Assembly: GCA_017962605.1 (NCBI GenBank)
Contig: JAGCUY010000179.1
Location: 1 to 64,000 of the forward strand
Source of the DNA: Kiritimatiellia bacterium
GTDB taxonomy: Bacteria; Verrucomicrobiota; Kiritimatiellia; RFP12; JAAYLN01
DNA length: 64,000 nucleotides
Direction: 5' to 3'
Below are positions 23,615 to 41,575 of this stretch, piece by piece. Within the stretch, counting starts at the first letter, position 1, and each line of letters starts with the position of its first letter. The notes under the pieces are model-generated. The model was given only the letters and a program-made list of their open reading frames with translations, was not told the DNA's origin and searched no databases. Made by a program: the position numbers and the translations under genes.

Positions 23615-23629
23615 CGCGTTTTTTCATTT

Positions 23630-23682
23630 GAACCGTTTGCCCCCCGGTTCGCCATTATTAATGTAGAGGATTTTAATATCCC
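23630..23682 (+). promoter_or_regulatory. conserved promoter-like block, copy 1
   Basis: GAACCGTTTG (23630-23639), 14 nt, ATTATTAATG (23654-23663), then a near-palindrome GGATTTTAATATCC (from 23668). The same elements precede the second sigma-fusion gene, and in both the ATTATTAATG ends exactly 27 nt before the start codon. GAAC is typical of ECF-type -35 boxes, so autoregulation is plausible but inferred. Confidence 0.55.
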
Positions 23683-23690
23683 AACGGGGC

Positions 23691-26486
23691 ATGACCATTG
23701 TTGAAGAAATAAGGCGGGATCGCGAAAGCGGGGCAAGGAGGCTCGAAGCCGAATACAAGGCCGGGCTGATGACCCTTGCCCGTCGCTTTTGCCATGACGA
23801 GGGCGATGCGGAGGAACTCGTCAACCACACTTTTGCAGTCGTTGTTGACCGCATAGACGACTACCTTGAGAAGTCGGCTTTCTTCGCATGGATGTGTCAG
23901 ATACTCTCTCATCTGCACTCGGAGGAAGTCCGCCGCAAGTCGAACAAGACCATATTGTATCCCGGAGAGGTGCCTGACCTGGCGGACGAGGCGGCCGAAG
24001 ACCGCATCTACGACGAAGTCGATGCCTCGCTTGTCAGGGACGCGGTCGATGGACTGCCGGCGGAGATGAGGGAGACCGTTGTTCTGCACTACTTCACGGG
24101 ACTTTCTGTTCCGCAAATCGCGAAATTCCTGGCCATCCCGGCGGGGACGGTCAAGAGTCGCCTGCACTATGCCCGCAAGGCGCTGGCGGCAAAATTCAGT
24201 TCCTCGGCGCACGAGTTCGCGAAGAAACCCGGCGGCAGGGCAGTCCTGCTGGCGCTGCTGCTTTGCGGGATTACGGCTCTGGGGGCGGTGGCAGGGCTTG
24301 CTGTTGCCAGCTTGCTGTCGTCGCCGTCGGTCGCCGTTGAACAGCAAGCAGACGACAGCAAGGACGCAGGACAGGCGACTGGTGGCACGCGACAAGCCAA
24401 GGCTTCCAACCTTTCAACTTTTCAACCTTTCAACTTTTCAACCTCCTCAAACTTGCCGCAATCCCCTTCAGCCACCACCCAGTCGGCCACCGAGTGCCAC
24501 CGGCCATCGGCAACCGAAAACTCTTTCTTAACAACTCAAGGAGAAAACATGAACATAAGCAGAACAGCAAAGACCACCGCCATCCTCGCCTCCGCGTCGC
24601 TGGCGCTCACAGCCACCGGCGCTGACTGGTATGTGGCCCCCAATGGCACCGGCGGCGGCACGTCGCAATCGGATCGCGGCGACCTCATGGACGTCCTCTA
24701 CAACGGCCAGATTGGGAGCGGAGACACCATCCACCTTGCTGTCGGCACCTATGTCTTGGATAAGAGCAAGAGTCCGGAAGGCCATGCCTACGGTGCCGGC
24801 GCCTACCTGTCCATTCCCGACACGACCAGTAGCCTGACGTTCATCGGCGAGAGCGATGACCCGGAGGACGTTCGTCTCATCGGAGGCGGCTCGACGGACG
24901 GGATGCGCATTTTCTACTTCGCATCTGGGGGGCACGTCCTTCGCAACATGCTCATTTCGGGCGGTTACGCGACCTACCAGGGGGCGGGCTTGTGCATGGG
25001 AGACAATTTCGTCGGCACCCCCGAATCGGCGTTTTGCGCCTCCAACTGCGTGGTGGAGAACTGCTCGGCGCCCTACACGGGGGCGAACTTCGGTGGTCTG
25101 TGGCGCAACTGCGTGATCCGCAACAACGAAGTGCGGAACTTGACACCCTCTCCCAACCCTGGCGAGGTCTGGAACTGGTATGAGTCCATTGAGGGGTCGG
25201 GCGGTGGCGTGTTCCACGCTGTTCTCCATGACTGCGTCATCACCAACAACTACGCGGGCTTCTGCGGCGGCGGCATAGCCGGAGGAAGGATCAACGGGCT
25301 TTCGGATGGGGCGATTTGCTTGACCAAGGCGTACAACTGCCTGATTGGCTGGAACCGCGCGACGTATGGCGGCGGGGCGGGCGCTGCGCCATCCTACGGC
25401 ACACGCGACTATGTCCAGCTCTTCGGCTGCACGCTCGTTGAGAATGTGTGGGCCTACACCGACCCCGGCGACGGCGGCGGGTTGGGCGGTGGCGCCTACC
25501 AGTGCGTCGTTTCCAATTGCGTCGTCCGCGGCAATTCGACGACACGGCCACACGGGTATTCATTCGCCGCATACGGACACGACTACGAGAAAAGCTCCGG
25601 CGGCGGCGTGATGGACTGCGATGTCTATGATTCCACGATTGAGGGTAGCACGAGCCAAAACAACGGGGCGGGAGCCGCTTTCAGTAGCCTGACACGTTGC
25701 AAGATTCTGAACAACACCGCATCTTGGACTCATCCCAACTTCACATTCGGCGGCGGCACCTATTCCTGTCCGCAGGTGACAGACTGCGTTCTTTCCGGCA
25801 ACAGGGCCGGATATGGCGGCGCTGCCTACTCAGGATATCTGGAGAACTGCGTGATCTCGAACAACCAGTCCACCGCCTATGACGGCAGTGCGACATACGA
25901 CGCCTCCACCCGCAACTGCCTTGTCGTGGGGAATACCGCCCAGCGGTACTACGCCGTCTGCAAGGGGACGCACTACGGGACGCTCGTGTATGGCAACACG
26001 AATCACAGCTGCGATCCGTGGGAGAATCTGCTGAACCCTGCTGCAAGCGGAATTGGCGCAGACGAAGGGGAATCAGCTGTTGCCGTCAACTGCACAGTTT
26101 GGAACAACATCTACAGTTCGGCGCAGGTTTCACGCACGGCCATGACGAACTGCATTGCCGGGAGCGTGGAGAACATTCCATCCGCCGTCAACTCCTTCTG
26201 GCGCTATGGGACGGTGGAAAACCAGACTGGCTGCATCAGCGGCGAGGACAAGGATCCATTTTTCGAGGGCATACAGGTCTCAGACGATGCGGCTCTCGTC
26301 GCGAGCGTCGCTCCCGAGGCGTATTCGATCAAGGCGGGATCGCCTTGCCGAGACACGGGCGTGACTCTTGCCGGCCAGACCGCCGAAAGGGATCTCCTTG
26401 GCAACAAGCGCGTGAAATATTACGAAGTTGATATGGGCGCCCTTGAATGCGCCAGCGCCTTGGCATTCACAATTGTCATTCAGTAG
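23691..26486 (+). CDS. ECF sigma factor-transmembrane-beta-helix surface protein fusion ORF (copy 1)
   Basis: One frame of 931 codons holds two normally separate things. Residues 1-170 are an ECF sigma factor: region 2 (CHDEGDAEELVNHTF) and region 4 with its helix-turn-helix (LSVPQIAKFLAIPAGTVKSR). Residues 184-208 form one transmembrane helix. A 75-residue low-complexity linker built from TTTCAAC repeats follows. At residue 287 (ATG 24549) a fresh signal peptide begins, leading to a glycine/cysteine-rich parallel beta-helix with repeated NCVV/CVI...NN rungs, ending in AFTIVIQ. There is no stop between the parts. The internal ATG has its own AAGGAG, so the surface protein may also be made alone. 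If read through, the product would be a membrane-tethered sigma factor. The first ATG has no clear ribosome site. Confidence 0.75.
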   Translation: MTIVEEIRRDRESGARRLEAEYKAGLMTLARRFCHDEGDAEELVNHTFAVVVDRIDDYLEKSAFFAWMCQILSHLHSEEVRRKSNKTILYPGEVPDLADEAAEDRIYDEVDASLVRDAVDGLPAEMRETVVLHYFTGLSVPQIAKFLAIPAGTVKSRLHYARKALAAKFSSSAHEFAKKPGGRAVLLALLLCGITALGAVAGLAVASLLSSPSVAVEQQADDSKDAGQATGGTRQAKASNLSTFQPFNFSTSSNLPQSPSATTQSATECHRPSATENSFLTTQGENMNISRTAKTTAILASASLALTATGADWYVAPNGTGGGTSQSDRGDLMDVLYNGQIGSGDTIHLAVGTYVLDKSKSPEGHAYGAGAYLSIPDTTSSLTFIGESDDPEDVRLIGGGSTDGMRIFYFASGGHVLRNMLISGGYATYQGAGLCMGDNFVGTPESAFCASNCVVENCSAPYTGANFGGLWRNCVIRNNEVRNLTPSPNPGEVWNWYESIEGSGGGVFHAVLHDCVITNNYAGFCGGGIAGGRINGLSDGAICLTKAYNCLIGWNRATYGGGAGAAPSYGTRDYVQLFGCTLVENVWAYTDPGDGGGLGGGAYQCVVSNCVVRGNSTTRPHGYSFAAYGHDYEKSSGGGVMDCDVYDSTIEGSTSQNNGAGAAFSSLTRCKILNNTASWTHPNFTFGGGTYSCPQVTDCVLSGNRAGYGGAAYSGYLENCVISNNQSTAYDGSATYDASTRNCLVVGNTAQRYYAVCKGTHYGTLVYGNTNHSCDPWENLLNPAASGIGADEGESAVAVNCTVWNNIYSSAQVSRTAMTNCIAGSVENIPSAVNSFWRYGTVENQTGCISGEDKDPFFEGIQVSDDAALVASVAPEAYSIKAGSPCRDTGVTLAGQTAERDLLGNKRVKYYEVDMGALECASALAFTIVIQ
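24404..24446 (+). repeat. TTTCAAC repeat in linker, copy 1
   Basis: Tandem TTTCAAC-type units, alternating CAACTTTT and CAACCTTT, are translated in frame as STFQPFNFSTS. The same stretch recurs at 39501-39537 and a variant at 35401-35434. Confidence 0.85.
24538..24551 (+). promoter_or_regulatory. internal ribosome binding site and start in the sigma-fusion ORF, copy 1
   Basis: AAGGAG (24538-24543) lies 5 nt before ATG 24549, which opens a signal peptide in the same frame as the sigma factor. It is stronger than any ribosome site at the 5' end of the ORF. Confidence 0.75.
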
Positions 26487-26586
26487 GGCGCGCCCCCGCA
26501 ATGAAGCCCTCATCGCCGTTGCCTCTCCTGCTGGCCCCGAAATGTCCGGTTGATGAGGTGAACGAATCATTTTCCCAGCATGGCAA

Positions 26587-26615
26587 TTGCCGTGCGGACG
26601 TCACTGTGCTATCAT
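26587..26615 (+). promoter_or_regulatory. sigma-70-type promoter for the 26659 gene
   Basis: TTGCCG (26587-26592), 17 nt, TATCAT (26610-26615), about 43 nt before the ATG. The match is moderate. Confidence 0.5.
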
Positions 26616-26658
26616 TGAAGCCAATATGGCAAGGCAAAACGTAATCGAGGACGAAACA

Positions 26659-28002
26659 ATGAAGACGAGCCAGGGATGCAACATTCTCATGGGCGCGGCG
26701 CTGGCCGCCGCGTCTGCGGCAATGCCGCTTCGCGGCGCTGCGGAGCCGCTTTCCGAGGAGGCTGTGGACAACCTCTGCCCGCCGCGTGCGGAGACGGCCG
26801 CCGAGTTCAAGGTAGGCTCATACCCCCCGGCGGCGCGCCCCTACCGCGAGGCCGCCAAGATGGCCTTTTCATACATGGCCTCGCTGCCAGCCATGCGGAC
26901 GCTTGTCGAGAAGGGCGAGCCGGAGCAGACCTACCAGCACAACGCATACGTCTCCAAGACCCATGCCGCGCACATCAACTACATGCTCGAATGGGCGCGG
27001 CGCGAGCCTGCACGGCGCAATGAGGCCATGCGTCTCGCCAAGGCGTCCGCCGAATATCTCCTCACGCAGCTGGAACCGAAGAAGGCGCCGCTCGCGTGGT
27101 GGCCCCCGACATACGGCCGCAAGCCGCTTAGAAGCGACTCCACGGGCGCAAACCGCCCCTCGATGGTCGGCAACGAGCCGGAGGGCGCCGTCAAGTATCG
27201 GGGCGAGGTCATGCTCCTCTACCCGGCAGACGTCGGCGCCGCATTTGTGGCCTATTTCAACGCCACCGGCGACCGCCGCTTCCTCAACGCGGCGATCGGC
27301 ATTGGCGAAACCTACATGAAAGTGCGCCGCAAGGATGGTAGCTGGCCGCTTAAGATGCGCCTCGCGACCGGGGAGCCGATTGGCGATAACACGCTCGTCC
27401 CGACCCGTCCGCTCGTTTTCTTCAACGCCCTGGCGGCAGCCACTAAAAAGGCCCGCTGGGCAAAGGCGGCCGACGACTGCTTCGCATGGCTTGAGGCGAA
27501 CCCGCTCACCGACTGGAACTGGGACGGTCAGTTCGAAGACATCCAGCCACGCCCGCCATACGCCAACCCCACCAAGCACAACGCCGTTGAGGCGATGTTC
27601 GAGATTCTCCGGCGCTTCCCGAACGATCCCGTGCGCCTGGAGCAGTGCCGCCGCATCCTGCGCTTCTGCGAGAAGCGCTTCGTTTGCTGGGAGCGTCCCG
27701 AGAACCACCCGAACTGGGATGCCCCGTCGGTGCTTGAGCAATACAGCTGCTTCGTCCCCATCGACGCCTCGGCGGCGAAGATGATCCGCGCATACCTCGC
27801 GCTCTGGCGCGTGACGGGCGAGCCGGAACTGCTGGCAAAGGCGCGGACGCTCGGCGACACCATCACCCGCGTTCAGACGCCCGAAGGGCGCATCCCGACC
27901 TTCTGGACGCACGACACCCTCGGCGATCAACTCTATGACTGGCTCAACTGCATGGGCTCTTCCGCATCGGCGTTGATGGAACTCGACGACGCGACCGATT
28001 GA
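26659..28002 (+). CDS. secreted alpha/alpha-toroid protein, probably glycan-active
   Basis: The chosen ATG has GAGG 8 nt upstream and opens a signal peptide (MKTSQGCNILMGAALAAASA), so the 447-aa product is exported. The mature part is almost all helical hairpins with repeated segments of the type MLEWARREP, AYFNATGDRRFLNAAIGIG and LALWRVTGEPELLAKARTLGD, the pattern of (alpha/alpha)6 toroids found in polysaccharide lyases and unsaturated-glycan hydrolases. Conserved-looking polar and aromatic patches such as WWPPTYGRKP and DWNWDGQFEDIQPR could form the active cleft. I cannot assign a family. Its place between the beta-helix protein and a GH5 suggests a role in the pectin-type degradation programme. 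Confidence 0.6.
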   Translation: MKTSQGCNILMGAALAAASAAMPLRGAAEPLSEEAVDNLCPPRAETAAEFKVGSYPPAARPYREAAKMAFSYMASLPAMRTLVEKGEPEQTYQHNAYVSKTHAAHINYMLEWARREPARRNEAMRLAKASAEYLLTQLEPKKAPLAWWPPTYGRKPLRSDSTGANRPSMVGNEPEGAVKYRGEVMLLYPADVGAAFVAYFNATGDRRFLNAAIGIGETYMKVRRKDGSWPLKMRLATGEPIGDNTLVPTRPLVFFNALAAATKKARWAKAADDCFAWLEANPLTDWNWDGQFEDIQPRPPYANPTKHNAVEAMFEILRRFPNDPVRLEQCRRILRFCEKRFVCWERPENHPNWDAPSVLEQYSCFVPIDASAAKMIRAYLALWRVTGEPELLAKARTLGDTITRVQTPEGRIPTFWTHDTLGDQLYDWLNCMGSSASALMELDDATD

Positions 28003-28057
28003 GCGCCCAGCGCCGCCCCGCCCTTTGACAGAGAATTATCGCTCCGTCGCCGACGCA

Positions 28058-29611
28058 ATGAAAAGACTGCTCATAACTGGCGTGGTGACGGTTGCCGCGA
28101 TTGTCACGGCGGCGGTTGAGATTGTTTCGCCTGATTCGCCGAAGCCGTATGAGGTGACGGCGGCGGGCCGCGAATGGGTACTCTCGCCCGAATGTCGGCT
28201 GGACGGCGACATCTTGACGGTTGTCGTGCCGGAGGGCGCTGCGGTCGGGCAGCACGGCGCCTGGACGACGCTTGACCTGTCCCCCTTCGCCGACGAAGGA
28301 TTCGAGGCCTCGATCCGCGTGCGCGGCGAAGGGGTGTCCGTCCCGCCCGAGTTCTACAATGGCGTCAAGTTCGTCTTCCGGTGCCGGAAGCCGGGGGACG
28401 AAGCCCCCGTGTGGCCGGGCGCGCTGCTTCCAACGGGCACCTTCGATTGGCAGACGGCCAGCGTCTGCTCCGACAAGGCCGCCTGCGTTGAAGGCGGCAG
28501 GGCCGATCTTCTCCTGGGACTTGAGAACTCCTCGGGAACGGCCGTCTTTGACCTCTCGACGCTGCGAATCGGGAAACCAGAATCGCACTGGCCAGTCACG
28601 AACCAGAACCACAGGTGCGCATACGGCGCACCTGACCCGTCACTCGCCACTCGTCACTCGCCGTTGCGCGGCGTGATGTCGCCTGGTGGAAACATGACGG
28701 AGGATGATTTCAAAACGCTCCATGCGTGGGGCGCGACGCTCCTGCGCTTCCAGATGGTGCGCGACTGGCACGCCGTGAACGGCAACCAGGATCTCGACGA
28801 ATATGACCGCTGGCTGGAAAGTCGCCTCGACCACTTCGACAAGGTAGTCCTGCCGCTGGCGCGGAAGTACGGGATCATGGTCGTTCTCGACCTGCATGTC
28901 CCGCCGGGGGGCCGCGATGCGGGCATGGAGGCCAACATGTTCTACGACGAGAGGATTGCCGGCCTTTTCGTGGAACTCTGGCGCCGCATCGCGAAGCGCT
29001 TCCGTGGACGCGGGGGCATCTATGGCTATGACCTCATCAACGAGCCTTGCCAGAGGCGCGAAACCCCCGCCGGCTGCGACTGGTGGAATCTCCAGCGGCG
29101 AGCCGCCGAGGCCATCCGCGCGGAAGACCCCGACACGCCGATTCTCGTCGAGTCAAACCAGTGGGACTCTCCGGAGACCTTCCGCTACATGTCTCCGATG
29201 ACGCTGACAAATGTCCTCTACGAAGTCCACATGTACGGCCCGGACGACTTCACCCATCAGCGCGTCCTCGGCACACGCCCCTGGATGGTCTCCTACCCGA
29301 ACGATGAAAGGGGCTGGAACCGGGTCCATCTGGCGGATATGCTGGAGCCCGTGCGCGAATTCCAGCGGAAGCATGGCGCGCGCATCTACGTCGGCGAGTT
29401 CAGCGCCGCCGCATGGGCGCCGGGGGCGGAGAACTACCTGCGCGACTGCATCGCCATCTTCGAGGAATATGGCTGGGACTGGACCTACCACGCCTTCCGC
29501 GAGGCGCCCGTCTGGGATGTGGAGAAGGAGGGCGAGACCATGGAGACCATGCGCCCCGCCGCCGCTGACACCCCGCGCAAGCGCGCCCTTCTCGATGGCT
29601 TCCGCAGGTAA
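28058..29611 (+). CDS. secreted GH5-type glycoside hydrolase with N-terminal beta domain
   Basis: This is a clan-A (retaining) hydrolase. An N-terminal hydrophobic signal (MKRLLITGVVTVAAIVTAA) is followed by a beta-sandwich resembling a carbohydrate-binding domain (about 25-180), then the TIM barrel. Catalytic residues are visible: acid/base E329 in DLINEP and nucleophile E447 in VGEFSAA, with VVLDLHVPPGG on an earlier strand. That pattern fits endo-beta-glucanase/mannanase-like GH5 enzymes; the substrate is not predictable. The linker between the domains (about residues 185-202) is made of a 9-bp-stem hairpin and CACTCG repeats translated in frame. I chose ATG 28058 over an in-frame start at 28025 because it begins the signal peptide. 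The XylR-like regulator follows after 14 nt. Confidence 0.85.
   Translation: MKRLLITGVVTVAAIVTAAVEIVSPDSPKPYEVTAAGREWVLSPECRLDGDILTVVVPEGAAVGQHGAWTTLDLSPFADEGFEASIRVRGEGVSVPPEFYNGVKFVFRCRKPGDEAPVWPGALLPTGTFDWQTASVCSDKAACVEGGRADLLLGLENSSGTAVFDLSTLRIGKPESHWPVTNQNHRCAYGAPDPSLATRHSPLRGVMSPGGNMTEDDFKTLHAWGATLLRFQMVRDWHAVNGNQDLDEYDRWLESRLDHFDKVVLPLARKYGIMVVLDLHVPPGGRDAGMEANMFYDERIAGLFVELWRRIAKRFRGRGGIYGYDLINEPCQRRETPAGCDWWNLQRRAAEAIRAEDPDTPILVESNQWDSPETFRYMSPMTLTNVLYEVHMYGPDDFTHQRVLGTRPWMVSYPNDERGWNRVHLADMLEPVREFQRKHGARIYVGEFSAAAWAPGAENYLRDCIAIFEEYGWDWTYHAFREAPVWDVEKEGETMETMRPAAADTPRKRALLDGFRR
28612..28662 (+). repeat. in-frame REP-like hairpin and CACTCG repeats in the GH5 linker
   Basis: CAGGTGCGC (28612-28620) pairs with GCGCACCTG (28626-28634) around ATACG, followed at 28638-28662 by CGTCACTCGC/CACTCG direct repeats. 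The reading frame stays open through it. Confidence 0.75.
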
Positions 29612-29625
29612 GGTGACTCGCCCTC

Positions 29626-30831
29626 ATGCCCCATAAGGATATGAACCCGCATCCCCGCATCCTCTATTTCGGGTACCATGCCGACGCGCAGATGCTGTGC
29701 GCGAAGTTAGCCGGAATGCGCCGTTATGCCGCGGCGCGGGGCTGGGAGGTGGAGCCGGTGGCGCGGGAGGACTCGACGCCGGCGGCCCTCCCCGGCATCC
29801 TGGCCCGCATCCGCCCCGCCGGCTGCATCGTGGAATGCCATTTCGGAAACACGGCACTGAAGCCATCGCTTTTCAAGGGCGTTCCCGTCGTGTATGTAAC
29901 TCCGGCCCACGGACTTTTCGGCCGTGGTGTCGCGCGCGTCATGCCGGACGACGACGCGATTGCGCGAGAAGCGATGCGTGAACTCGCCGCCAACCATCCC
30001 AAGGCATACGCCTATGTCGGCTTTGACCAGCCGGCCTCATGGGATGGCGTCCGCCTGAACGCTTTTCGCAAACTGGCGCGAATATCCAAGCTGCCATGCG
30101 GCGAGTTCCACTACATCCTCCATGACAAAGACGACAAGGCGGAACGCGCTGCCCGCGCTGCTGCGCTTTCGGCATGGCTGGCGACTCTGCCGCGTGGATG
30201 CGGCATCATGGCAGCCAACGACCGCATCGCCGCCGAGACGCTTTCCTCCGCCCGCGCGGCGCATCTCTCCTGCCCATACGACTTCACGCTCATCGGCGTT
30301 GACAACAGCGAGGCATACAGCGGAACTGACGAGGCCTCCATCTCGACGATCCGTGTTGATTACGAACGTATGGGCTATGTTGCCGCAAAGATGATTGGCG
30401 AGATGACCGGAACGCCTCGGGCTGCCGCAAAGACTGGCGCGCCCCAGCCGGTTCTGGTCGGTCCGCTCCTTGTTCTCCGGCGCAAATCGACGGGAGGCAG
30501 CGGCCGCAGGGCACCGTTCATCATAGAGGCGGTCGAAATCATCCGACGAGAGGCGTGCGACGGCCTCGAACCCCATGACCTGATTGCGCGCTTCCCATTT
30601 TCACGCCGCCTGTTCGAGACCCGCTTCCGCGAGGCCATGGGCCATTCCATTCGCGAGGAAATTAGGCAGGTTCGCCTTGAGCGGGTGTGCTCGCTCCTCG
30701 CCGAAACGGACATGCCGGTTTCGGCCATATCGGACTTCTGCGGATTCGGTTGCGGCCACGCCCTGCGCGAACTGTTCCACGACCGCCTAGGGATGTCCAT
30801 GCGAGAATTCCGCGCCTCCAGGTGCCGGTGA
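29626..30831 (+). CDS. XylR-like transcriptional regulator (LacI-type ligand domain plus AraC HTH)
   Basis: The 401-aa protein has a LacI/periplasmic-binding-protein-like sensor domain (about 10-285: VPVVYVTPAHG, AYVGFDQP, GIMAANDRIAAE, FTLIGVDNSE, STIRVDYERMGYVAA) followed by a C-terminal AraC-type double helix-turn-helix (about 300-400: LIARFPFSRRLFETRFREAMG, ISDFCGFGCGHALRELFHDRLG). This arrangement is that of XylR, which binds a sugar and activates catabolic genes. Here it probably senses a monosaccharide or oligosaccharide released by the surrounding hydrolases. It is the only classical DNA-binding regulator seen in the catabolic region, the others being the two sigma domains. AGGTGA about 9 nt upstream supports the first ATG; 29641 is an alternative. 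Confidence 0.88.
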   Translation: MPHKDMNPHPRILYFGYHADAQMLCAKLAGMRRYAAARGWEVEPVAREDSTPAALPGILARIRPAGCIVECHFGNTALKPSLFKGVPVVYVTPAHGLFGRGVARVMPDDDAIAREAMRELAANHPKAYAYVGFDQPASWDGVRLNAFRKLARISKLPCGEFHYILHDKDDKAERAARAAALSAWLATLPRGCGIMAANDRIAAETLSSARAAHLSCPYDFTLIGVDNSEAYSGTDEASISTIRVDYERMGYVAAKMIGEMTGTPRAAAKTGAPQPVLVGPLLVLRRKSTGGSGRRAPFIIEAVEIIRREACDGLEPHDLIARFPFSRRLFETRFREAMGHSIREEIRQVRLERVCSLLAETDMPVSAISDFCGFGCGHALRELFHDRLGMSMREFRASRCR

Positions 30832-30909
30832 ACCTAAAAAAACTTTGCGCAAACAATCCACTCACCACTGCGGAAGGGTGGTAAAATGGAATCATGTTCG
30901 GGATGATTA

Positions 30910-30930
30910 GGCCTCCCGCGCCGGGGGGCC
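30910..30930 (+). promoter_or_regulatory. strong 5'-UTR hairpin before the FGE-like gene
   Basis: GGCCTCCCG (30910-30918) can pair with the segment ending CGGGGGGCC (to 30930) with one T-G pair. No T-run follows, so it is not a typical terminator. A TAAAAT (30882-30887) upstream may be a -10 box. It could be a stabilising or regulatory leader element. Confidence 0.4.
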
Positions 30931-30954
30931 GGCCTGAACGGTGGAGAAACTCAC

Positions 30955-32193: not shown

Positions 32194-32205
32194 AGGGAGG
32201 GTGCC

Positions 32206-33084: not shown

Positions 33085-33091
33085 AGTGCCC

Positions 33092-34399
33092 ATGACGGCC
33101 GCCATCCCCCGCGACTATGCCTCCGACGCGGATTTTGTCGCGGCGTTCCGCGCCGCCGCCATCGCGATGGCCCAGCGCAAGAGCGCCGCGCTGGGCGTTT
33201 CTCCGCCAGGGGCGGCAATCCCCGTGGGGCCGCGAATCGCCACTGGCGGCAAGTTCGACGGCCACTTCCTTTGGGATGCTGCCTTCAGCGTCTTCTGGGC
33301 CGTGCATGCGCCGGCAGGGGCGCTGCCCATCGCCTCTACCCTTGACAACTTCTACCGTTTCGCCGAGCCGGATGGCTACATAGGGCGCGAGTTCCTGGCG
33401 GACGGCACCCCTGTCTGGGATCCCGAACACCCAATCTCCTTCAATCCGCCGATGTTCGCGTGGGCGGAGCTGGAACTGGCAGGCAGTCCTTGCGCAGAGC
33501 CGGGGCGGCTTGCCCGCGTCTATCCCACCCTGGTGCGCCACCACCAGTCATGCGTCCGCAAGTTCCGGCGTCCAGACGGCCTATACTTCAGCTGCGGACT
33601 AGGCTGCGGAATGGACGACATGCCGCGCTGGCCGCATGGCTTCACCCCCGCCCAACGTGCGGCGGGCGGCATCCCGCTTACGGAACAGTCGCTCGGCGAG
33701 CGCTCGCGCGACATCTGGACGCGCTGGCTTAACTGCTGCGCCGCCGACCATTCATGGAACCGCCAGGCGGGCTGGATTGACATGTCGGCCGCAATGGCGC
33801 TGGACGCCCGCTCTCTTGCCGAGATTGCCATGCGCGTCGGCCGTACCGACGAAGCGCGCGAGTTCAATGCCGAACACGCGACGCTCGCGGCGGCCATCAA
33901 CCGTCTCTGCTGGGACGAGGCGACGGGCTTCTACTACGATGTGACCGACGGTGGGATCATCAGGCGCCGCCACCTCGGCGCGCTCTGGACGCTCGTCTCG
34001 CATGTCGCGCCGCCGGAGCGCGTGGAGCGGATGATTGCCACGCTTTTCGATCCGGCGGTGTTCTACCGCACCGTGCCCCTTGCATCGCTTGAGGCTGGCG
34101 ACCCGGACTACACGCCGGAGAAGGAATACTTCAAAGGCCCCGCCTGGCCGAACTTGAACTTCCTCGCGATTCGCGGGCTGTGCGAATACGGGCACAGAAC
34201 CGAGGCGGAAAGACTCGCCCGCCTCTGGTATAATTGCTGCGCCGCCCTCTACGAAAAAACGGGCGGCATCTACGAGAATCTCTCATCCGAGCAGTTCGAT
34301 CACCCCAAGGAACGCTCCTTCCCCGACTATGCGGGACATGGCTGCCTCACGCCAGTCGCCTTGCCTGCGATGTTCGGATGGGGCAAAAACCACCAATAG
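33092..34399 (+). CDS. GH63/trehalase-like (MGH1-type) glycoside hydrolase
   Basis: A 435-aa cytoplasmic-looking protein (no signal peptide) with the (alpha/alpha)6 toroid of the GH37/GH63/trehalase group. Motifs are GGKFDGHFLWDAAF near the N-terminus, SCGLGCGMDDMPRWP (the general-acid-type Asp region), GWIDMSAAMALDA, DEATGFYYDV, EYFKGPAWPNLNFLAI and FPDYAGHGCLTP at the end. These enzymes are inverting and act mainly on alpha-glucosides or mannosides; the exact substrate is unclear. I used ATG 33092; an in-frame TTG at 33074 would overlap the previous gene. The next gene begins 8 nt later. Confidence 0.75.
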   Translation: MTAAIPRDYASDADFVAAFRAAAIAMAQRKSAALGVSPPGAAIPVGPRIATGGKFDGHFLWDAAFSVFWAVHAPAGALPIASTLDNFYRFAEPDGYIGREFLADGTPVWDPEHPISFNPPMFAWAELELAGSPCAEPGRLARVYPTLVRHHQSCVRKFRRPDGLYFSCGLGCGMDDMPRWPHGFTPAQRAAGGIPLTEQSLGERSRDIWTRWLNCCAADHSWNRQAGWIDMSAAMALDARSLAEIAMRVGRTDEAREFNAEHATLAAAINRLCWDEATGFYYDVTDGGIIRRRHLGALWTLVSHVAPPERVERMIATLFDPAVFYRTVPLASLEAGDPDYTPEKEYFKGPAWPNLNFLAIRGLCEYGHRTEAERLARLWYNCCAALYEKTGGIYENLSSEQFDHPKERSFPDYAGHGCLTPVALPAMFGWGKNHQ

Positions 34400-34407
34400 G
34401 ACTCCTC

Positions 34408-36903
34408 ATGAAGACATCCCCAATTCTTGCCGCCATCTTCGCATTCCTCGCCTGTGCGCCAGTGTCGCAAGGCGCGGATGTCACCGCCCGCGTCAACAGC
34501 CGCGGTGGCCTTGCATTCGGTGGAGCCGAGATCGACATCGTCGCCTACGCCCCCGGCTGGAAGAGGCTTTCCGCGAAGTCCGAATGGATTTCCGCGCCCG
34601 ACATCGGACATGGCAGGTTCTCGATTGCCAACGACCAGGGCACGGCGACCTTCCGCGGGCGCGGCGTGTGGTCGCAGGGAGAGGGCGGGGAACTTCACGG
34701 CCACATTGAAATCAGTTGCGTCGCCGCCGCTGAAATGCAGTGTCTAGCCGTAATGGTCAACCTGCCAGTTGATCCGCCAATCGGCAATGGGGATGGCTCC
34801 GCAACGGACTTTGAACTGCCGCTTTCCGATGGCCGCGTCGCCCGCCTCTCTTTCACCAATGCCATCCCCTACCATTCGCAGGACTTGCGCCCGAAAGGCG
34901 GACGCTGGACCGTCCGATTCGGCGCATCCGCCATTACTCCACGCGCCTACACGCCGGGGGAGAAGATGGAATGGGACATGACTCTGTCCGCTCCAGGCGG
35001 CCTCGCGCTCGCCCTTGCCACGCCGATTGTAATTGCCGAAGGCGACGACTGGGTGCGCCTTGACTACAAGAAGGACATCGTTCCCGGCTCCGCGCTCGAC
35101 TTTTCGACACTGGGGCTGCAGGACGCTCCCGCCGGCAAGCACGGTTGGCTCAAATCCGTAGGCGGCCACTTTGAGTTCGAGGGGCTGCCTGGGGTCGAGC
35201 AGCGCTTCTATGGCGTCAACCTCTGCTTCTCTGCCAACTACCCCGACCACGACCTTGCCGACAGCCTCGTCGATCGTCTCGTGCGTCTTGGCTACAACGC
35301 CCTTCGCGTCCACCACCATGATGGCGCATGGGCTGCCGCATACGCGCATCGTGAAGTCGAAAGTCAAAGGTCGAAGGTCGATGACGAAGCATCCACTGAC
35401 CTTTCAACTCTTCAACCTTTCAACCTTTCAACCTCTGTCGATGTCGTCGACGACGACATCGACAGATTGGACTATCTCCTTGCCAAGTGCTTTGAGCGCG
35501 GCATCTATGTGACGACAGACCTCTATGTGTCGCGGAAAGCGCCATGGCACGACATCGGCATCGACCGCGACGACACACTCAACCAGAATCTCTACAAGAC
35601 CTACGTGGGCGTCCATGACGGGGCCTTCGCCGACTGGTGCCGCTGGTCGCGCGAGTTTCTGGAGCATGTGAACCCCTACACGGGCCGCGCCTACAAGGAC
35701 GAACCGGGCCTTCCGCTCATCTCGCTCATCAACGAGGGAATCCTCGCTATGGGCTGGGATGCCACCGGCAAGGCCACCGACCCATACATTCACCAGGCCT
35801 GGCTGGAGTCCGGCGGCAAAGGAGACACGCCCTCCCCTGGCACCAAGGAATTCGAGGCATTCGACGCCTGGCTCACCCGCCGCATCTTCGAGCGCTGCTC
35901 CGATTTCGTGCGCTCGCTCGGCTGCCGCGCCCTGCTTTCCAACGACAACAACGGCAAGAAGCACGGCGAAGGCGAGGGCTGCACTCCGCTCTACGACTAT
36001 GTGGACAGCCACTGGTATATCGACCACCCGACATTCATCGACAAGCCCTGGAGCCTTCCTTCCAAGTGCGGCAACGACAACCTGATCAAGTGCGACAAGC
36101 CGGCCATCTTCCACAGCGGCTGGGCGAAGGGTGCCTCAAAGCCCTACACGATTTCAGAGTGGAACATCGCCTATCCCGGCTATTACCGGGGCATGGGTGG
36201 CATCCTTACAGGCGCACTCGCGGACGAGCAGGAGTGGGATGGCCTCTGGCGCTTCGCCTACTCGCATGACAGGAAGAACCTTGCGGGAGACCACAACGTC
36301 GCCGGCTTCTTCGATTGCGTTGTTGATCCGCTAATCGCCGCCAGCGACCGCGCGAGCGTCTTCCTCTTCCTGGGCCGTGCGCCTGGAACCCTCTCACTTG
36401 ACAAGGCCCGTGGCTCAATGGCCATAGTCTCGCCACTCACTTGCGGCGGCTTCGCCGAAAGCGGCCGCATCGATGCCGGGCCTGTTCAATTCGAAATCTT
36501 GCCACCAAATCAGAGTTCTGCAAATCCGAGTCCCGCGCCCGCCACACTTTGGGTGAGTTCCCTCGACGGCAAGCCCGTTGAGCGCTCCTCCCGCATGCTG
36601 CTGGTGCATCTCACCGATGTGCAGGGCGAGGGAACGCAATTCGCCGATGAGGCTCGCCGGATAATTCTCAAGTGGGGCGAGGTGCCACTCGTCGCGGTTG
36701 GCTCCGCCGAGGTGTCGTTGCGCCTCGCGCAAGATGGTGCCGATGCTCCATCCTCTGGCACACCCGCCGTCTATTCACTCGATACCGCCGGCAATCGCAT
36801 TGGCGAAGTGCCGTCGCGCATCGAAGATGGAACCCTGCGCTTCACTGTGTCCACTCGTGGACCGCAAGGCGGCCGCATCTACTACGAAATCGTGCGGCAA
36901 TAG
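34408..36903 (+). CDS. secreted clan-A glycoside hydrolase with in-frame repeat insertion
   Basis: The 831-aa product starts with a signal peptide (MKTSPILAAIFAFLACAPVSQG) chosen at ATG 34408 with AGGA upstream; in-frame codons before it belong to the previous gene's region. It has an N-terminal beta domain (about 25-245), a TIM barrel (about 260-640) and a C-terminal beta domain. Catalytic Glu residues on the usual strands are E443 in SLINEG and E584 in TISEWN, with NALRVHHHDG on an earlier strand. This resembles GH5-like retaining enzymes; the family number is uncertain. Residues about 316-343, just after the HHHDG strand, are a translated repeat element, so an active-site-side loop has been lengthened. 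Confidence 0.8.
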   Translation: MKTSPILAAIFAFLACAPVSQGADVTARVNSRGGLAFGGAEIDIVAYAPGWKRLSAKSEWISAPDIGHGRFSIANDQGTATFRGRGVWSQGEGGELHGHIEISCVAAAEMQCLAVMVNLPVDPPIGNGDGSATDFELPLSDGRVARLSFTNAIPYHSQDLRPKGGRWTVRFGASAITPRAYTPGEKMEWDMTLSAPGGLALALATPIVIAEGDDWVRLDYKKDIVPGSALDFSTLGLQDAPAGKHGWLKSVGGHFEFEGLPGVEQRFYGVNLCFSANYPDHDLADSLVDRLVRLGYNALRVHHHDGAWAAAYAHREVESQRSKVDDEASTDLSTLQPFNLSTSVDVVDDDIDRLDYLLAKCFERGIYVTTDLYVSRKAPWHDIGIDRDDTLNQNLYKTYVGVHDGAFADWCRWSREFLEHVNPYTGRAYKDEPGLPLISLINEGILAMGWDATGKATDPYIHQAWLESGGKGDTPSPGTKEFEAFDAWLTRRIFERCSDFVRSLGCRALLSNDNNGKKHGEGEGCTPLYDYVDSHWYIDHPTFIDKPWSLPSKCGNDNLIKCDKPAIFHSGWAKGASKPYTISEWNIAYPGYYRGMGGILTGALADEQEWDGLWRFAYSHDRKNLAGDHNVAGFFDCVVDPLIAASDRASVFLFLGRAPGTLSLDKARGSMAIVSPLTCGGFAESGRIDAGPVQFEILPPNQSSANPSPAPATLWVSSLDGKPVERSSRMLLVHLTDVQGEGTQFADEARRIILKWGEVPLVAVGSAEVSLRLAQDGADAPSSGTPAVYSLDTAGNRIGEVPSRIEDGTLRFTVSTRGPQGGRIYYEIVRQ
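35352..35436 (+). repeat. in-frame repeat insertion in the clan-A hydrolase gene
   Basis: AAGTC/AAAGGTC units at 35354-35380 are followed by GACCTTTCAACTCTTCAACC and further TTTCAACC units to about 35434. The halves are roughly inverted copies. The frame stays open. Confidence 0.75.
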
Positions 36904-36912
36904 GCGCGCCGC

Positions 36913-36941
36913 TTGACATATTGGCGGCAACTTGAAACAAT
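36913..36941 (+). promoter_or_regulatory. sigma-70-type promoter for the binding-protein gene
   Basis: A perfect TTGACA (36913-36918), 17 nt and AACAAT (36936-36941). Transcription would start only a few bases before ATG 36952, giving little or no leader. Confidence 0.6.
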
Positions 36942-36951
36942 TAAAGCCTCT

Positions 36952-38718
36952 ATGTTCTTCCCCAAGCCTTTTCTTCTCCTTGCCGCCATTGGCGCGGCAG
37001 GCATAGCCTTCGCCCAGAACCCCTTCGCGGATGCGCCCGACCCAATCGCATCCGAGTTCGCAGTGCCGGGTGGCGCAATTACATACGCCGCCGCTGCCGC
37101 GCCGAAGTCGCTCAACCCCTACCTCGACAACAACGTTTTCTCTTATCAAGTTTTCGGGTCCCTCTACGAAACCCTCCTCTCCGCCGACCCGCTCACAGGC
37201 GACAACGCCCCCGGCCTCGCCCGCAAGTGGGAGGTGTCCGAGGACAAGCGCGAGTTCACATTCTTCCTCAACCCCATTGCCAAGTGGAGCGACGGCCAGC
37301 CGGTTACGGCGCATGACGTCTTATGGACCTTCAACGCCATCATGGCGCCCTCGAACCAGACTGGCGCCGCCAAGGTCGCTCTCCAGACCTTCACGGCCAC
37401 GCCGCCGGAGGTAATCGACGACCTGACCATCAAGTTCACTGCCGACGAGGTGCACTGGCGCAACCTCAACGCCGCAGGCGGCTTTGAAATCATGCCGAAG
37501 CATGTCTTCGAAGGCCGTGACTTCAACAAGATCAACACCGACTTCCCAGTTGTCTCCGGCCCATACCGCATCGCCGAGGTCAAGGAGGGCATATCAATCA
37601 CGCTGGAGCGCAGTTCCGACTGGTGGGGCCGCGCGCTGGCCGCCAACAACGGCCTCTACAACTTCAATCGCGTCATCTACCGTTTCTTCGCCGAGCAGGA
37701 CAACGCCTACGACGCCTTCCTTGCCGGCGAAGTCGATGTGTTCCCCGTCTATCGCGCCTCAATCTGGGTGAACCGCACCTCCGGCCGCAAGTTCGACAAC
37801 AACTGGATCGTGAAGCGCCGCATAGTCAACCACCACCCAACCGGCTTCCAGGGCTTTGCCATGAACCTCAGGCGTCCGCCCTTTGACGACCTCCGCGTCC
37901 GCATGGCCCTTGCCAAGCTGCTTGACCGTCAGCGCCTCAACGAGACCCTGATGTTCAACCAGTACTTCCTCCAGCGCTCATATTGGGAAAACCTCTACGA
38001 TGCCTCCAACGAGTGCCACAACGTGTCCATCGCCTTCGATCCCGCCGGCGCCGCGCAGCTCCTTGACGAGGCCGGATGGATTCTCGACCCCGCCACCGGC
38101 ATCCGCACCAACGGTGAGGCGCGCCTCTCGTTCACCTTCCTCACCCGTGACGAGTCATCCGACAAGTTCCTCGCCCTCTACCGCGAAGACCTCCGCAAGG
38201 CCGGAGTGGAGCTGAAGATCGAGCGCAAGGACTGGGCCGCATGGACGCGCGACATGGACGACTTCAATTTCGACATGACATGGGCTGCCTGGTCGGGCGG
38301 CGTGAACATCGACCCCGAGGGGATGTGGGCGTCGGCCGAGGCTGACCGTCCCGGCGGCAACAACATCACCGGATTCAAGGACGGCATGGTTGACAAGCTC
38401 ATCGAGGCCCAGCGCGGGATATTCGACATCGGCGAGCGCAATGAAATCTGCCGCCGCATCGATGGCATCCTCACCGATAAAGTCCCATACATCCTCCTCT
38501 GGAACGTCGATTCCACTCGCCTGCTTTACTGGGACAAGTTCGGCACCCCCGCCACGGTCCTCTCGAAGTTCGGCGACGAGCGTTCGCTTCTGGCCTACTG
38601 GTGGTTTGACGAAGACTCCGCCGCCGACCTGGCCGAAGCCATGGCCGAGGGCGACATCCTTCCGGCGCGCCCGGATGTGGTGGAGTTCGACTCCGCCTTC
38701 ATCCCCCAGCGCCCATAG
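36952..38718 (+). CDS. ABC-type family 5 extracellular solute-binding protein
   Basis: A 588-aa exported protein of the oligopeptide/dipeptide-binding family (SBP_bac_5), which also includes oligosaccharide binders. After a signal peptide (MFFPKPFLLLAAIGAAGIAFA) it shows LNPYLDNNVFSYQVFGSLYE, LARKWEVSEDKREFTFFL, WSDGQPVTAHDVLWTF, PVVSGPYRI, DDLRVRMALAKLLDRQ and a C-terminal ICRRIDGILTDKVPYILLW. It would deliver ligand to an inner-membrane ABC importer, but no permease or ATPase gene lies nearby in the window. An upstream in-frame TTG (36913) is the -35 box rather than a start. Given the context it may bind an oligosaccharide, which is inference. Confidence 0.87.
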   Translation: MFFPKPFLLLAAIGAAGIAFAQNPFADAPDPIASEFAVPGGAITYAAAAAPKSLNPYLDNNVFSYQVFGSLYETLLSADPLTGDNAPGLARKWEVSEDKREFTFFLNPIAKWSDGQPVTAHDVLWTFNAIMAPSNQTGAAKVALQTFTATPPEVIDDLTIKFTADEVHWRNLNAAGGFEIMPKHVFEGRDFNKINTDFPVVSGPYRIAEVKEGISITLERSSDWWGRALAANNGLYNFNRVIYRFFAEQDNAYDAFLAGEVDVFPVYRASIWVNRTSGRKFDNNWIVKRRIVNHHPTGFQGFAMNLRRPPFDDLRVRMALAKLLDRQRLNETLMFNQYFLQRSYWENLYDASNECHNVSIAFDPAGAAQLLDEAGWILDPATGIRTNGEARLSFTFLTRDESSDKFLALYREDLRKAGVELKIERKDWAAWTRDMDDFNFDMTWAAWSGGVNIDPEGMWASAEADRPGGNNITGFKDGMVDKLIEAQRGIFDIGERNEICRRIDGILTDKVPYILLWNVDSTRLLYWDKFGTPATVLSKFGDERSLLAYWWFDEDSAADLAEAMAEGDILPARPDVVEFDSAFIPQRP

Positions 38719-38734
38719 CTGCAAAAAAAACATT

Positions 38735-38786
38735 GAACCGTTTGGCGGCTCGGAGATATTATTAATGCGTGGGATTTTATAATCCC
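38735..38786 (+). promoter_or_regulatory. conserved promoter-like block, copy 2
   Basis: GAACCGTTTG (38735-38744), 13 nt, ATTATTAATG (38758-38767), then the palindrome GGGATTTTATAATCCC (38771-38786). The ATTATTAATG ends 27 nt before the start codon, as in copy 1 at 23630-23682. Confidence 0.55.
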
Positions 38787-38794
38787 GTGCATTT

Positions 38795-41575
38795 ATGGAT
38801 ATCGTCGAGGAACTCAGGCAGGATCGCGAAAAGGGCGCAAGGAGGCTCGAAACCGAATACAAGGCCGGGCTGATGACCCTTGCCCGTCGCTTTTGCCATG
38901 ACGAGGGCGACGCCGAGGAGCTGGTGAACCGCACCTTTGCCGCTGTTGTCAGTGGCATCGACGACTATCTGGAGAAATCCGCTTTCTTTTCCTGGATGTG
39001 CCAGATAATGACGAACATCCACACGGTCGATGTCCGTCGCATGGAGAACAAGATCATCCTCTATCCCGGGGATGTGCCGGAAGTCGCCGACACCTCGTCT
39101 GCGGAGCGCATCTACGAGGAAGTCGATGCCTCGCTTCTGCGGGAGGCGGTCCACAAGTTGCCGAAGGAGTCGCGGGAGCTTCTTGTCCTCCACTACTTTC
39201 TGGACATCCCGATTCCAAAGATGGCGAAGATTCTGGCAGTTCCGGCGGGGACGGTCAAGAGCCGCCTGCACTACGCCCGCAAGGCGCTGGCGGCCAAGCT
39301 GGGCGTGGCCGCCCAAAAGCCGGGGGGCAAGGCGGTGATCCTGGCGCTGCTGCTCAGCGGCCTCACCGCGCTTGGCGCGGGGGCGGGGCTTGCCGTTGTC
39401 CGATTGCTGTCGTCGCCGTCGGTCGCAGAGGAACAGCAAGCGGACAACAGCAAGGACGCAGGACAGGCGACAGGCGACGCGCGGCAAACTGAGGCTTCCA
39501 GCCTTTCAACTTTTCAACCTTTCAACTTTTCAACCTCCTCAAACTTGCCGCAATCCCCTTCAGCCACCACCCCGTCGGCAACCGATTGCTATCGGCCATC
39601 GGCAACCGAAAACTCTTCTTCAACAACTCAAGGAGTAAAAATGAACAAAACCACAACCACGCGCGCCGCCGCCATGTTGGCCGCGGCAACACTCACAACC
39701 GGCTTGGCCACCACCGCCAACGCCGACGACTACATCTGGAATGTTCCAGAAGGGGAAACGGAGACCATCGATGCTGTGGCTGTCGCCAACATAGGGGCGA
39801 AGGACCTTGTGAAGACGGGGCGCGGGAAGCTTATCAGCTCTGACGCAATGGCGTCATACACAGGCAAGATTACAGTCCGCGAAGGCGCGTTTGAAATCAA
39901 GACCACAGGCGACCTCGGCACAGACGCTGGCGGCACATTCGTCGAGAACGGTGGTACGCTCGTCGTGAACATGTCTTCAAAGGACCAGCAGTTTGGCAGC
40001 GAGGTCTTCACCATCGCAGGCGCAGGCGACGCGGCCTATGGAGCGGCCATCTACCAGTCCAACCGTGGCAATGACCAGAACAAGTTCTTCCACCACATTG
40101 CTCTTTCCGACGACGCCACCATTTGTTCGGGAACACATCTCGGGCTTGCGTCCGGCGAACTGACGATGAATGACCACACGCTGACCATCACGGGAGCGGG
40201 CATCTTCACATTCCGACATGCCCAAACACCTACACCCGTCGGCAACCTCGTCTCGGAGATTGGTACGCTCCGTTTCCGCGGCGGCTCCAATTACACGGGA
40301 AATCCGTCCAAGACGCTCACCGTCCGGAATGGCAGTACGCTGGTGCTTGGCGATTCGGGCGACAACGCCCCGCCAATCTGGTGGGAACTCGTCGTCGAGG
40401 ATGGCGGCAAGGTTGCCCCCGAGACTTCATCAGTACGCACCTATCAGGGCAATGTGGTATGGAACGCGACGACGGAGAATGGCGTATCCGGGTCTCTTGT
40501 GTTCGCCGGCGCAGTGACCGGCTCGGGGACGATCAAGGCCTCAAACGCGACGCTGACATTCTCGAAGCCGCTCGGCGCGGGCGTAGGCCTCGGGCTCTCC
40601 GGCACCGCCACGGCCGCTCTGCCAACCGCCTCGGCATACCCTTACACCCACAGGGGTCTCATCACCTGCTACCGCAGCGATGGATGGCGTAGTGGATTGA
40701 ACGACTCTTCCCGAAGGGACAACCGATGGGGCTATTGCGCCTACGGGCCAGGGCCTCAGCTTGAGCGCGAAGGCTGGTGGGAATCCAGGAATGGCAAGTC
40801 CGATTTGTGGAACACCCGCGGCTACCTTTGGAATCGCGAGGCGACAAATGTCACGTACACCATCTTCTGCGGCCCCGTTTACGAAACCTGGATCAACACA
40901 GGGGGAACGCTGGTGCTTAACAATAACAACTGGGTTTTTGAAGGAGACCGGACCGCACGATATGACAACAAGCGGGACGCCTGGGGATCATTCTCGCTTG
41001 AAGTTCCGGCAAACTCCTGCATTGGCATCGATATCCAGACGGTAGATGGCGGCAATTCAGATGCGAACGACGAAGGCGGTCCCCGCTCTGACAATGACAA
41101 GTTCAAAATCAACGGCGTGATTGCGAACGATCCGAGGGGCTATTACTTCACGACGAACGCGGTTTCGGTCCTTGAAACCCCGGCTCTGCCGACGCTGGCG
41201 CTGGCGGACAACGGCGCACTCGACGCGAACAACATGGCGATGTCGGTTGCCGCGCTTTCCGGTATGGGACAGGTCGCGAACGTGACGACGCTTACCGTGT
41301 CGAATTCCTGGAATCTCCCTGCTGCGGATGCCATCTCCGGCCACTCGCTCGTCGTTGATGGCGATCTCGCCTTTGGCGACAACTGCGCATTTTCGGTAAC
41401 AGGCATGTCCAATCTGGAGCTAGGCTCCATCCACACAGTCTGCACGGCGGACTCCATCACCGGCTTTACGGATACGGAAATCACTGACGGGCACAGCAAG
41501 TGCAAACTTGTCAAAACTGGAAACCGAATTGACCTCGTTTCCATACCCAATGTGACAGTGCTTCGATTCCGGTAA
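38795..41575 (+). CDS. ECF sigma factor-transmembrane-passenger-repeat surface protein fusion ORF (copy 2)
   Basis: This 926-codon frame repeats the plan of the 23691 ORF with another cargo. Residues 1-170 are an ECF sigma factor nearly matching copy 1 (same CHDEGDAEELVN and AGTVKSRLHYARKALA blocks), residues 180-205 a transmembrane helix, and about 206-282 the same repeat-derived linker. At residue 283 (ATG 39641, with AAGGAG) a signal peptide starts, followed by one passenger-repeat module (LVKTGRGKLISS, YTGKITVREG, FVENGGTLVVNM) with a jelly-roll-like part (LITCYRSDGWRSGLN ... YDNKRDAWGSF) and the tail VTVLRFR. The sigma half is conserved while the cargo differs, so the two halves look separately exchangeable. 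Whether one or two proteins are made is open. Confidence 0.75.
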   Translation: MDIVEELRQDREKGARRLETEYKAGLMTLARRFCHDEGDAEELVNRTFAAVVSGIDDYLEKSAFFSWMCQIMTNIHTVDVRRMENKIILYPGDVPEVADTSSAERIYEEVDASLLREAVHKLPKESRELLVLHYFLDIPIPKMAKILAVPAGTVKSRLHYARKALAAKLGVAAQKPGGKAVILALLLSGLTALGAGAGLAVVRLLSSPSVAEEQQADNSKDAGQATGDARQTEASSLSTFQPFNFSTSSNLPQSPSATTPSATDCYRPSATENSSSTTQGVKMNKTTTTRAAAMLAAATLTTGLATTANADDYIWNVPEGETETIDAVAVANIGAKDLVKTGRGKLISSDAMASYTGKITVREGAFEIKTTGDLGTDAGGTFVENGGTLVVNMSSKDQQFGSEVFTIAGAGDAAYGAAIYQSNRGNDQNKFFHHIALSDDATICSGTHLGLASGELTMNDHTLTITGAGIFTFRHAQTPTPVGNLVSEIGTLRFRGGSNYTGNPSKTLTVRNGSTLVLGDSGDNAPPIWWELVVEDGGKVAPETSSVRTYQGNVVWNATTENGVSGSLVFAGAVTGSGTIKASNATLTFSKPLGAGVGLGLSGTATAALPTASAYPYTHRGLITCYRSDGWRSGLNDSSRRDNRWGYCAYGPGPQLEREGWWESRNGKSDLWNTRGYLWNREATNVTYTIFCGPVYETWINTGGTLVLNNNNWVFEGDRTARYDNKRDAWGSFSLEVPANSCIGIDIQTVDGGNSDANDEGGPRSDNDKFKINGVIANDPRGYYFTTNAVSVLETPALPTLALADNGALDANNMAMSVAALSGMGQVANVTTLTVSNSWNLPAADAISGHSLVVDGDLAFGDNCAFSVTGMSNLELGSIHTVCTADSITGFTDTEITDGHSKCKLVKTGNRIDLVSIPNVTVLRFR
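39501..39537 (+). repeat. TTTCAAC repeat in linker, copy 2
   Basis: The same alternating CAACTTTT/CAACCTTT run as at 24404-24446, translated in the same frame. Confidence 0.85.
39630..39643 (+). promoter_or_regulatory. internal ribosome binding site and start in the sigma-fusion ORF, copy 2
   Basis: AAGGAG (39630-39635) lies 5 nt before ATG 39641, the first codon of a signal peptide in frame with the sigma factor. Confidence 0.75.
39728..41572 (+). repeat. passenger-repeat module copy A
   Basis: A full module of about 600 residues, from the TIDA-type opening to the hydrophobic tail, within the second sigma-fusion ORF. Confidence 0.8.

Follow-up and report, generated by a model that had tools for sequence, protein, structure and literature searches.

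The window, which is the whole 64,000-nucleotide stretch of Kiritimatiellia DNA analysed here, contains two long open reading frames in each of which an ECF sigma factor, a single transmembrane (TM) helix, a linker and an exported surface protein are joined without a stop codon. With a probability of roughly 0.6, each is read as a one-piece membrane-tethered ECF sigma factor, whose exported and often carbohydrate-binding part would serve as the sensor, with proteolytic release of the sigma factor and autoactivation of its operon.

Architecture of the Two Fusions

The frames at 23691-26486 and 38795-41575, both on the + strand, encode 931 and 926 aa, respectively, with no internal stops. The sequence-only reading had described sigma regions 2 and 4, one TM helix, a linker, a signal peptide and a cargo in this order and without a stop, which was confirmed for both frames. 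It had also described the sigma-helix halves as alike and the cargos as different; the halves are about 72% identical, and the cargo is of the beta-helix type in fusion 1 and a passenger-repeat-like module in fusion 2. The features are as follows.

23691..24200, +, ECF sigma domain of fusion 1, regions 2 and 4, aa 1-170 (Pfam, TIGR02937, Foldseek)
24144..24176, +, region 4.2 recognition helix GTVKSRLHYAR of fusion 1 (covaries with the -35 element)
24240..24305, +, predicted TM helix of fusion 1, aa 184-205, with KKPGGR ahead of it on the cytoplasmic side (hydropathy, flanking charge)
24306..24548, +, linker of fusion 1 without a stop, with a dispersed 8-bp repeat at 24411-24450
24539..24543, +, Shine-Dalgarno AGGAG for the cargo 1 start
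24549..26486, +, cargo 1 from an internal ATG, beta-helix-type surface protein with the C-terminus AFTIVIQ
24549-24623, +, signal peptide of cargo 1
38795..39304, +, ECF sigma domain of fusion 2, aa 1-170 (Pfam, TIGR02937)
39248..39280, +, region 4.2 recognition helix GTVKSRLHYAR of fusion 2 (covaries with the -35 element)
39332..39397, +, predicted TM helix of fusion 2, aa 180-201 (hydropathy, flanking charge)
39398..39640, +, linker of fusion 2 without a stop, with a dispersed 8-bp repeat at 39503-39542
39631..39635, +, Shine-Dalgarno AGGAG for the cargo 2 start
39641..41575, +, cargo 2 from an internal ATG, passenger-repeat-like protein with the C-terminus TVLRFR
39641-39724, +, signal peptide of cargo 2

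The Pfam families Sigma70_r2 and Sigma70_r4_2 were found above the gathering score in both fusions, and TIGR02937, used as the test of the ECF family, gave 63-71 bits against a cut-off of 42.9. The best Foldseek matches of the sigma-TM structure model, which was built from 67 sequences with moderate confidence (mean pLDDT 74.5), were AlgU, SigL, SigW and SigmaE, which confirms the ECF fold. Single-sequence AlphaFold prediction of the entire 931-aa fusion gave a mean pLDDT of 33.5 and no usable model. For cargo 1, the Pfam match to NosD was weak and below the cut-off. The linker is about 81 residues long and rich in S, T, A and P in both fusions.

Conservation of the Joined Frame

The source genome (4.18 Mb in 231 contigs) gave 20 sigma matches. 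Of these, 17 belong to full or nearly full fusions, which have differing cargos in open frames of 742-1330 aa; one further copy breaks off at a contig edge within the TM region. A contig scan added L097-L153, which are 57 loci with strong homology from Kiritimatiellae/Verrucomicrobia MAGs, chiefly of the ruminant gut. The search of related genomes that had been proposed with the sequence-only reading thus returned dozens more fusions with varied cargos. The same architecture is present in relatives of the same order, and in a class-wide sample of 116 genomes the long fused frames were confined to this order, with standalone sigma factors only elsewhere. Standalone ECF sigma factors of the same order (L183-L190) have a homologous sigma domain but, unlike the fusions, reach a stop soon after region 4. 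In L183, L185, L186 and L188, the protein encoded next after the standalone sigma factor is short and has a single hydrophobic helix; it is possibly a separate anti-sigma factor, and this arrangement is perhaps the ancestral one.

Loci were judgeable if they were distinct, had a TM helix and were sufficiently covered by sequence. There are 79 of them, and 77, from several genomes, are fused in frame. The exceptions are L117, whose cargo is out of frame through a small shift, and the degenerate locus L099. A normal stop between sigma factor and cargo in relatives had been named as the finding that would speak against the joined reading; the search for it produced these two exceptions and did not refute the reading. 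In the pairs L144/L146 and L109/L148, the sigma halves are nearly the same (99.0-99.4% identity over 480 nt), and they are joined to differing linkers and cargos, still in frame.

The linkers themselves are wholly unlike between genera, consisting of TTTCAACC repeats, STASTV, GTGGTG or HAENAESAE. In 60 dissimilar linkers (less than 50% of 5-mers shared; 3,976 codons), the number of stops was 0 in frame 0, 45 in frame +1 and 87 in frame +2, where the linkers are treated as independent and some relatedness persists among them. The corresponding numbers were 0/8/17 in the source genome and 0/37/70 in other genomes. The earlier view had been that chance is a poor explanation of the stop-free junction; together with the 77 loci in frame, these counts show that it is not due to chance. 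Since the linkers remain open and yet are dissimilar, their sequences argue that the joined sigma-cargo polypeptide is under selection. An indel test on the linkers, in which 42 of 177 gaps were multiples of three, was uninformative because most linkers are not homologous; clean linker alignments contained only three gaps of 15, 18 and 18 nt, and both gaps of 18 nt come from one comparison against near-identical copies.

Both window linkers contain the dispersed 8-bp unit TTTCAACC, which the sequence-only reading did not mention. The idea that the linker is open merely since this repeat is stop-free was rejected, as the other frames hold the 45 and 87 stops given above. Over the whole genome, a 20-mer of TTTCAACC with at most one mismatch has 133 forward and 97 reverse matches, and the reversed control has 66. 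Text similar to the repeat is also translated in frame at 34234-36903.

An assembly or binning artefact would be a trivial cause of the fusions, since the genomes that bear them include MAGs and one locus (L117) is frameshifted. However, the same architecture recurs with unrelated linkers in independent assemblies from different projects, so that an artefact is extremely improbable.

Cargos, Operon Context and C-Terminal Tag

Searches of the cargos against Pfam and NCBIfam gave matches to Laminin_G, CBM60, BspA LRR, PATR, beta-helix and other families, and many cargos had no match. Laminin_G_3 was found in 10 of 58 cargos and CBM60 in 2 of 58, neither being present in the two window cargos. 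In L098, L121, L128, L135, L139 and L180, the sigma factor is fused to a short cargo (about 85-100 aa) that contains EYQFI(V/I)SGD or FIISGDP as a motif. Cargos of such variety do not prove a role in sensing.

The fusion usually heads a run of genes. In 15 of 16 source-genome loci, no more than 150 nt separate the fusion from the start of the next ORF on its strand, where ORFs of at least 250 aa are counted. The downstream neighbours named by Pfam include GH5, GH39, alpha-amylase-type and pectinase-like proteins, with several others having no Pfam match; the neighbours in the window include a rhamnosidase/acetyl xylan esterase, a GH5, an MGH1-like GH and an AraC-type regulator. Fusion 2 is followed by two secreted proteins related to its cargo.

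41612..43489, +, secreted protein without a sigma fusion, paralogue of cargo 2 at 58% identity, 36 nt downstream
43502..50308, +, large unfused secreted protein with more cargo 2 modules at 54-55% identity, probably encoded in the same operon

The product of 43502-50308 has 2268 aa, with an esterase-like start, several cargo 2 modules and another enzyme-like stretch.

Otherwise unrelated cargos (57 distinct) have a common C-terminal signature, [GAP][FT]-four hydrophobic-[RK], where position -6 is F or T in 51/57, positions -5 to -2 are hydrophobic in 55/57 and the last residue is R or K in 47/57. This tag may possibly be an undescribed sorting signal. A similar ending occurs on unfused window proteins, as seen among the C-termini examined in the window (33084, 41575, 43489 and 50308), and the copy C100_2132, which lies at a contig end, has final residues without the usual tag. 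The T9SS sorting domain had no match among 58 cargos (NCBIfam, E 0.01), and in the search for SprA_N the controls gave no match.

The shared signature on unrelated cargos is what a common step of export or assembly would be expected to leave, and the fused cargo could then report its own secretion, with stalled or misfolded cargo leading to cleavage and sigma release. This sensing of export status is very unlikely, because the tag is also carried by unfused window proteins and no link was found between it and any protease or export machine.

Internal Cargo Start and Membrane Topology

A Shine-Dalgarno match of at least 4 nt is present at the cargo start in 82% of the loci, at the sigma start in 20% and at random codons in 13%. 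In the window, AAGGAG stands directly ahead of the internal ATG of both cargos (24549 and 39641), which had escaped the sequence-only reading. As nearly every cargo has its own Shine-Dalgarno sequence and ATG, two products are likely, and the free cargo is probably made as the second one. The conservation of the internal start suggests that the free cargo matters.

The TM windows reach a hydropathy of 1.6 in 60 of 60 cases. The 15 residues ahead of the TM helix are positive in 60/60 and the 40 residues behind it are negative in 53/60, and this distribution of charge fits an N-in/C-out orientation. The hydropathy of the internal signal peptide is modest, with a mean of 1.37 and a value of at least 1.6 in 13/60. 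If this segment acted as a second helix within the long product, the cargo would end in the cytoplasm, which makes the internal signal peptide awkward there; its modest hydropathy means that the segment may instead pass through the membrane. The loci L141 and L165 are fused though they have no internal signal peptide, so that they must make the long form, with export dependent on the first TM helix. In L165 (G037:C26), which is a distant member of the sigma-TM fusions, the exported part gave a match to squalene-hopene-cyclase-like repeats.

The strong and conserved Shine-Dalgarno sequence, ATG and signal peptide at the cargo start would also be expected of a two-gene operon that lacks a stop, in which the two proteins function separately, the cargo arises solely from its own start, and the role of the open linker is just to couple translation or to shield the mRNA from Rho. 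The dispersed repeats of intergenic type within the linkers point in the same direction, as does the adjoining free cargo paralogue, which works without a sigma factor. However, coupling or protection from Rho may need a stop-free linker but not phased frames, and the frames are in phase at nearly all judgeable loci; L141 and L165 also stand against separate products. Such an operon is therefore considered unlikely. The selection of a joined polypeptide remains the preferred reading, with a free cargo made in addition.

Promoters and Region 4.2

A motif sampler applied to 72 upstream regions, blind to the sigma sequences, gave a two-block ECF-like promoter. In the window, the pattern occurs twice against 0 expected, ahead of each fusion, which is also an addition to the sequence-only reading.

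23628..23661, +, ECF-type promoter of fusion 1, -35 TTGAACC and -10 region ATTATTAA (motif sampler)
38733..38765, +, ECF-type promoter of fusion 2, -35 TTGAACC and -10 region ATATTATTAA (motif sampler)

A few elements were poorly placed by the sampler (e.g., C217) and were kept unchanged, and a single shift of register, in which AACC had been taken as ACC, was put right by rule.

The -35 element changes with region 4.2 of the sigma factor encoded behind it. Sigma factors with GTVKSR have TTGAACC, those with GTVNSR, HSR or FSR have a -35 element with AAG, and those with MSR or LSR have mostly AAT; GTVxWR goes with CCAAC/CCAAT and the STVKWR type with ACTATC. When descent is ignored, the Fisher test gives p = 1.3e-13 for S/W against G/not-G in the -35 element, p = 1.5e-6 for the STVKWR type against CTATC, and p = 3.1e-6 for K/R against C in the -35 element. 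A tree for which region 4 was left out shows 11 changes of the S/W trait. Independent pairs on well-supported branches numbered 4 and 5, with agreement averaging 3.9 and 4.3 and 0 opposite cases (p ~0.125), which is too few for significance from this test alone. When aligned with E. coli sigma-E and further ECF sigma factors of solved structure, the covarying residues fall in the helix that reads the -35 element, where they presumably contact the DNA. Since the -35 element tracks region 4.2 of its own sigma factor, each sigma factor probably drives its own operon, in which polysaccharide-degrading enzymes are often encoded, and the covariation suggests that each fusion activates the operon it heads.

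The class-specific -35 sequence ACTATCCTTT occurs 4 times in the genome, twice ahead of fusions and twice apparently by chance, and no wider regulon of this class was seen among these genome occurrences. As a tentative proposal, the genome would hold a set of about 17 insulated switches that activate themselves. In each, the sigma factor would form one polypeptide with the surface protein encoded by the gene that it transcribes, and free cargo would be supplied through the internal start. The sigma modules would be shuffled onto new cargos, and their -35 code would be readable. The proposed code would pair K/R with C, M/L with T and N/H/F with G, and S with TTGAA and W with CCAA.

The covariation, which implies autoregulation with differing specificities, is also expected of an expression cassette that amplifies itself, where the sigma factor autoactivates its own gene for a bistable choice of one among many surface proteins and the cargo is a payload, not a sensor. 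The roughly 17 paralogues with different cargos and the few genome occurrences of ACTATCCTTT accord with such a cassette. It leaves unexplained, however, why there is a joined frame instead of two cistrons, and the degradative enzymes downstream suggest control by substrate, so that this possibility is regarded as unlikely.

Proposed Mechanism

The tethered, self-activating sensor that is preferred here would operate as follows. In the full-length product, the sigma factor would lie in the cytoplasm, the chain would cross the membrane once, and the surface domain would stand outside on a disordered linker. Tethering alone, or occlusion at the membrane, would keep the sigma factor quiet until an outside signal leads to a cut in or near the TM helix. 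The freed sigma factor would then read its own dedicated promoter and drive the operon headed by the fusion, including the downstream exported enzymes, and the second start, with its own Shine-Dalgarno sequence and signal peptide, would supply free cargo in quantity. What the sequences show is the architecture, the conserved frame, the signals for an internal start, the covariation of sigma factor and promoter, and the operon context. It is inferred that both products are made, that the tethered form is inactive, that release is proteolytic and that the signal is a polysaccharide; release by cutting the link is drawn by analogy to IutY, SCO4117 and RsgI. A protease of the M50/site-2 type is encoded; this finding carries little weight because such peptidases are near universal and occur in all 14 control genomes.

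Two interpretations had been offered earlier, a one-piece sensor and a sigma factor produced along with the surface protein under its control; they are compatible and partly supported. Both gain from the frame kept across genera despite unrelated linkers and from the -35-reading residues that track their own promoter. The earlier reading overlooked the cargo's conserved internal Shine-Dalgarno sequence and start, owing to which a free cargo is likely as a second product.

If the mechanism is true, signalling from outside to inside would be exceptionally compact, with sensor, anchor and transcription factor in one chain that lacks an anti-sigma domain, in a design multiplied and shuffled within one genome. 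It would suggest how the poorly known Kiritimatiellae of the rumen pair their polysaccharide-degrading operons with substrates, and would make an internal Shine-Dalgarno sequence with a signal peptide questionable as proof of a separate gene. The approximately 60 natural sigma-promoter pairs form a testable recognition code for orthogonal promoters.

Comparison with Known Systems

Literature searches limited to open-licence papers, and therefore weak as evidence, turned up nothing on the topic when Kiritimatiell* was combined with sigma factor, and no relevant paper for exact phrases denoting membrane-tethered sigma factors. An ECF sigma factor with a membrane-spanning regulatory extension is already known. 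In SCO4117 of Streptomyces coelicolor (ECF52), an ECF sigma factor, a TM region, a proline-rich extracytoplasmic stretch and a carbohydrate-binding domain form one polypeptide, with evidence of positive autoregulation and a proposed release by proteolysis; a zinc-finger (anti-sigma-like) domain lies between sigma factor and TM region, and the group is described as exclusive to Actinobacteria (PMC5826349). The present fusions resemble it in the TM region with an extracytoplasmic extension and in the carbohydrate-binding domain, which is found in some cargos of the family, not those in the window. They differ in having about 17 paralogues, changing cargos, and an internal start with a signal peptide. 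Among the Pfam/NCBIfam matches listed, none was to a zinc-finger anti-sigma-like domain in the two window fusions.

IutY of Pseudomonas putida (ECF243), which belongs to an iron-starvation cell-surface signalling system, is an ECF sigma factor with a membrane-spanning C-terminal part and a FecR-like anti-sigma factor, and is activated by Prc and RseP cleavage (PMC8999054). The fusion of a sigma factor to a membrane-spanning part is shared with the present proteins. Pfam gave no match to FecR in the window fusions, and there is no room for it ahead of the TM helix, as only 8-19 residues separate region 4.2 from the TM window. ECF48, ECF52 and ECF53 are further precedents of tethered or sensor-linked sigma factors (PMC8999054).

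In the SigI/RsgI systems of Clostridium thermocellum, multiple paralogues with a single TM helix and divergent extracellular sensors control polysaccharide-degrading genes, and cleavage is by RseP; RsgI is an anti-sigma factor with an autocleaving periplasmic domain, and SigI is not an ECF sigma factor (PMC12203970). There, the sigma factor and the TM sensor are separate proteins, whereas here the sigma factor, the TM helix and the exported domain form one polypeptide. What is new in the present family is that no anti-sigma domain is detectable, that it is greatly expanded within one genome with shuffled cargos, and that it combines a conserved internal start and signal peptide with a recognisable residue-to-base pattern.
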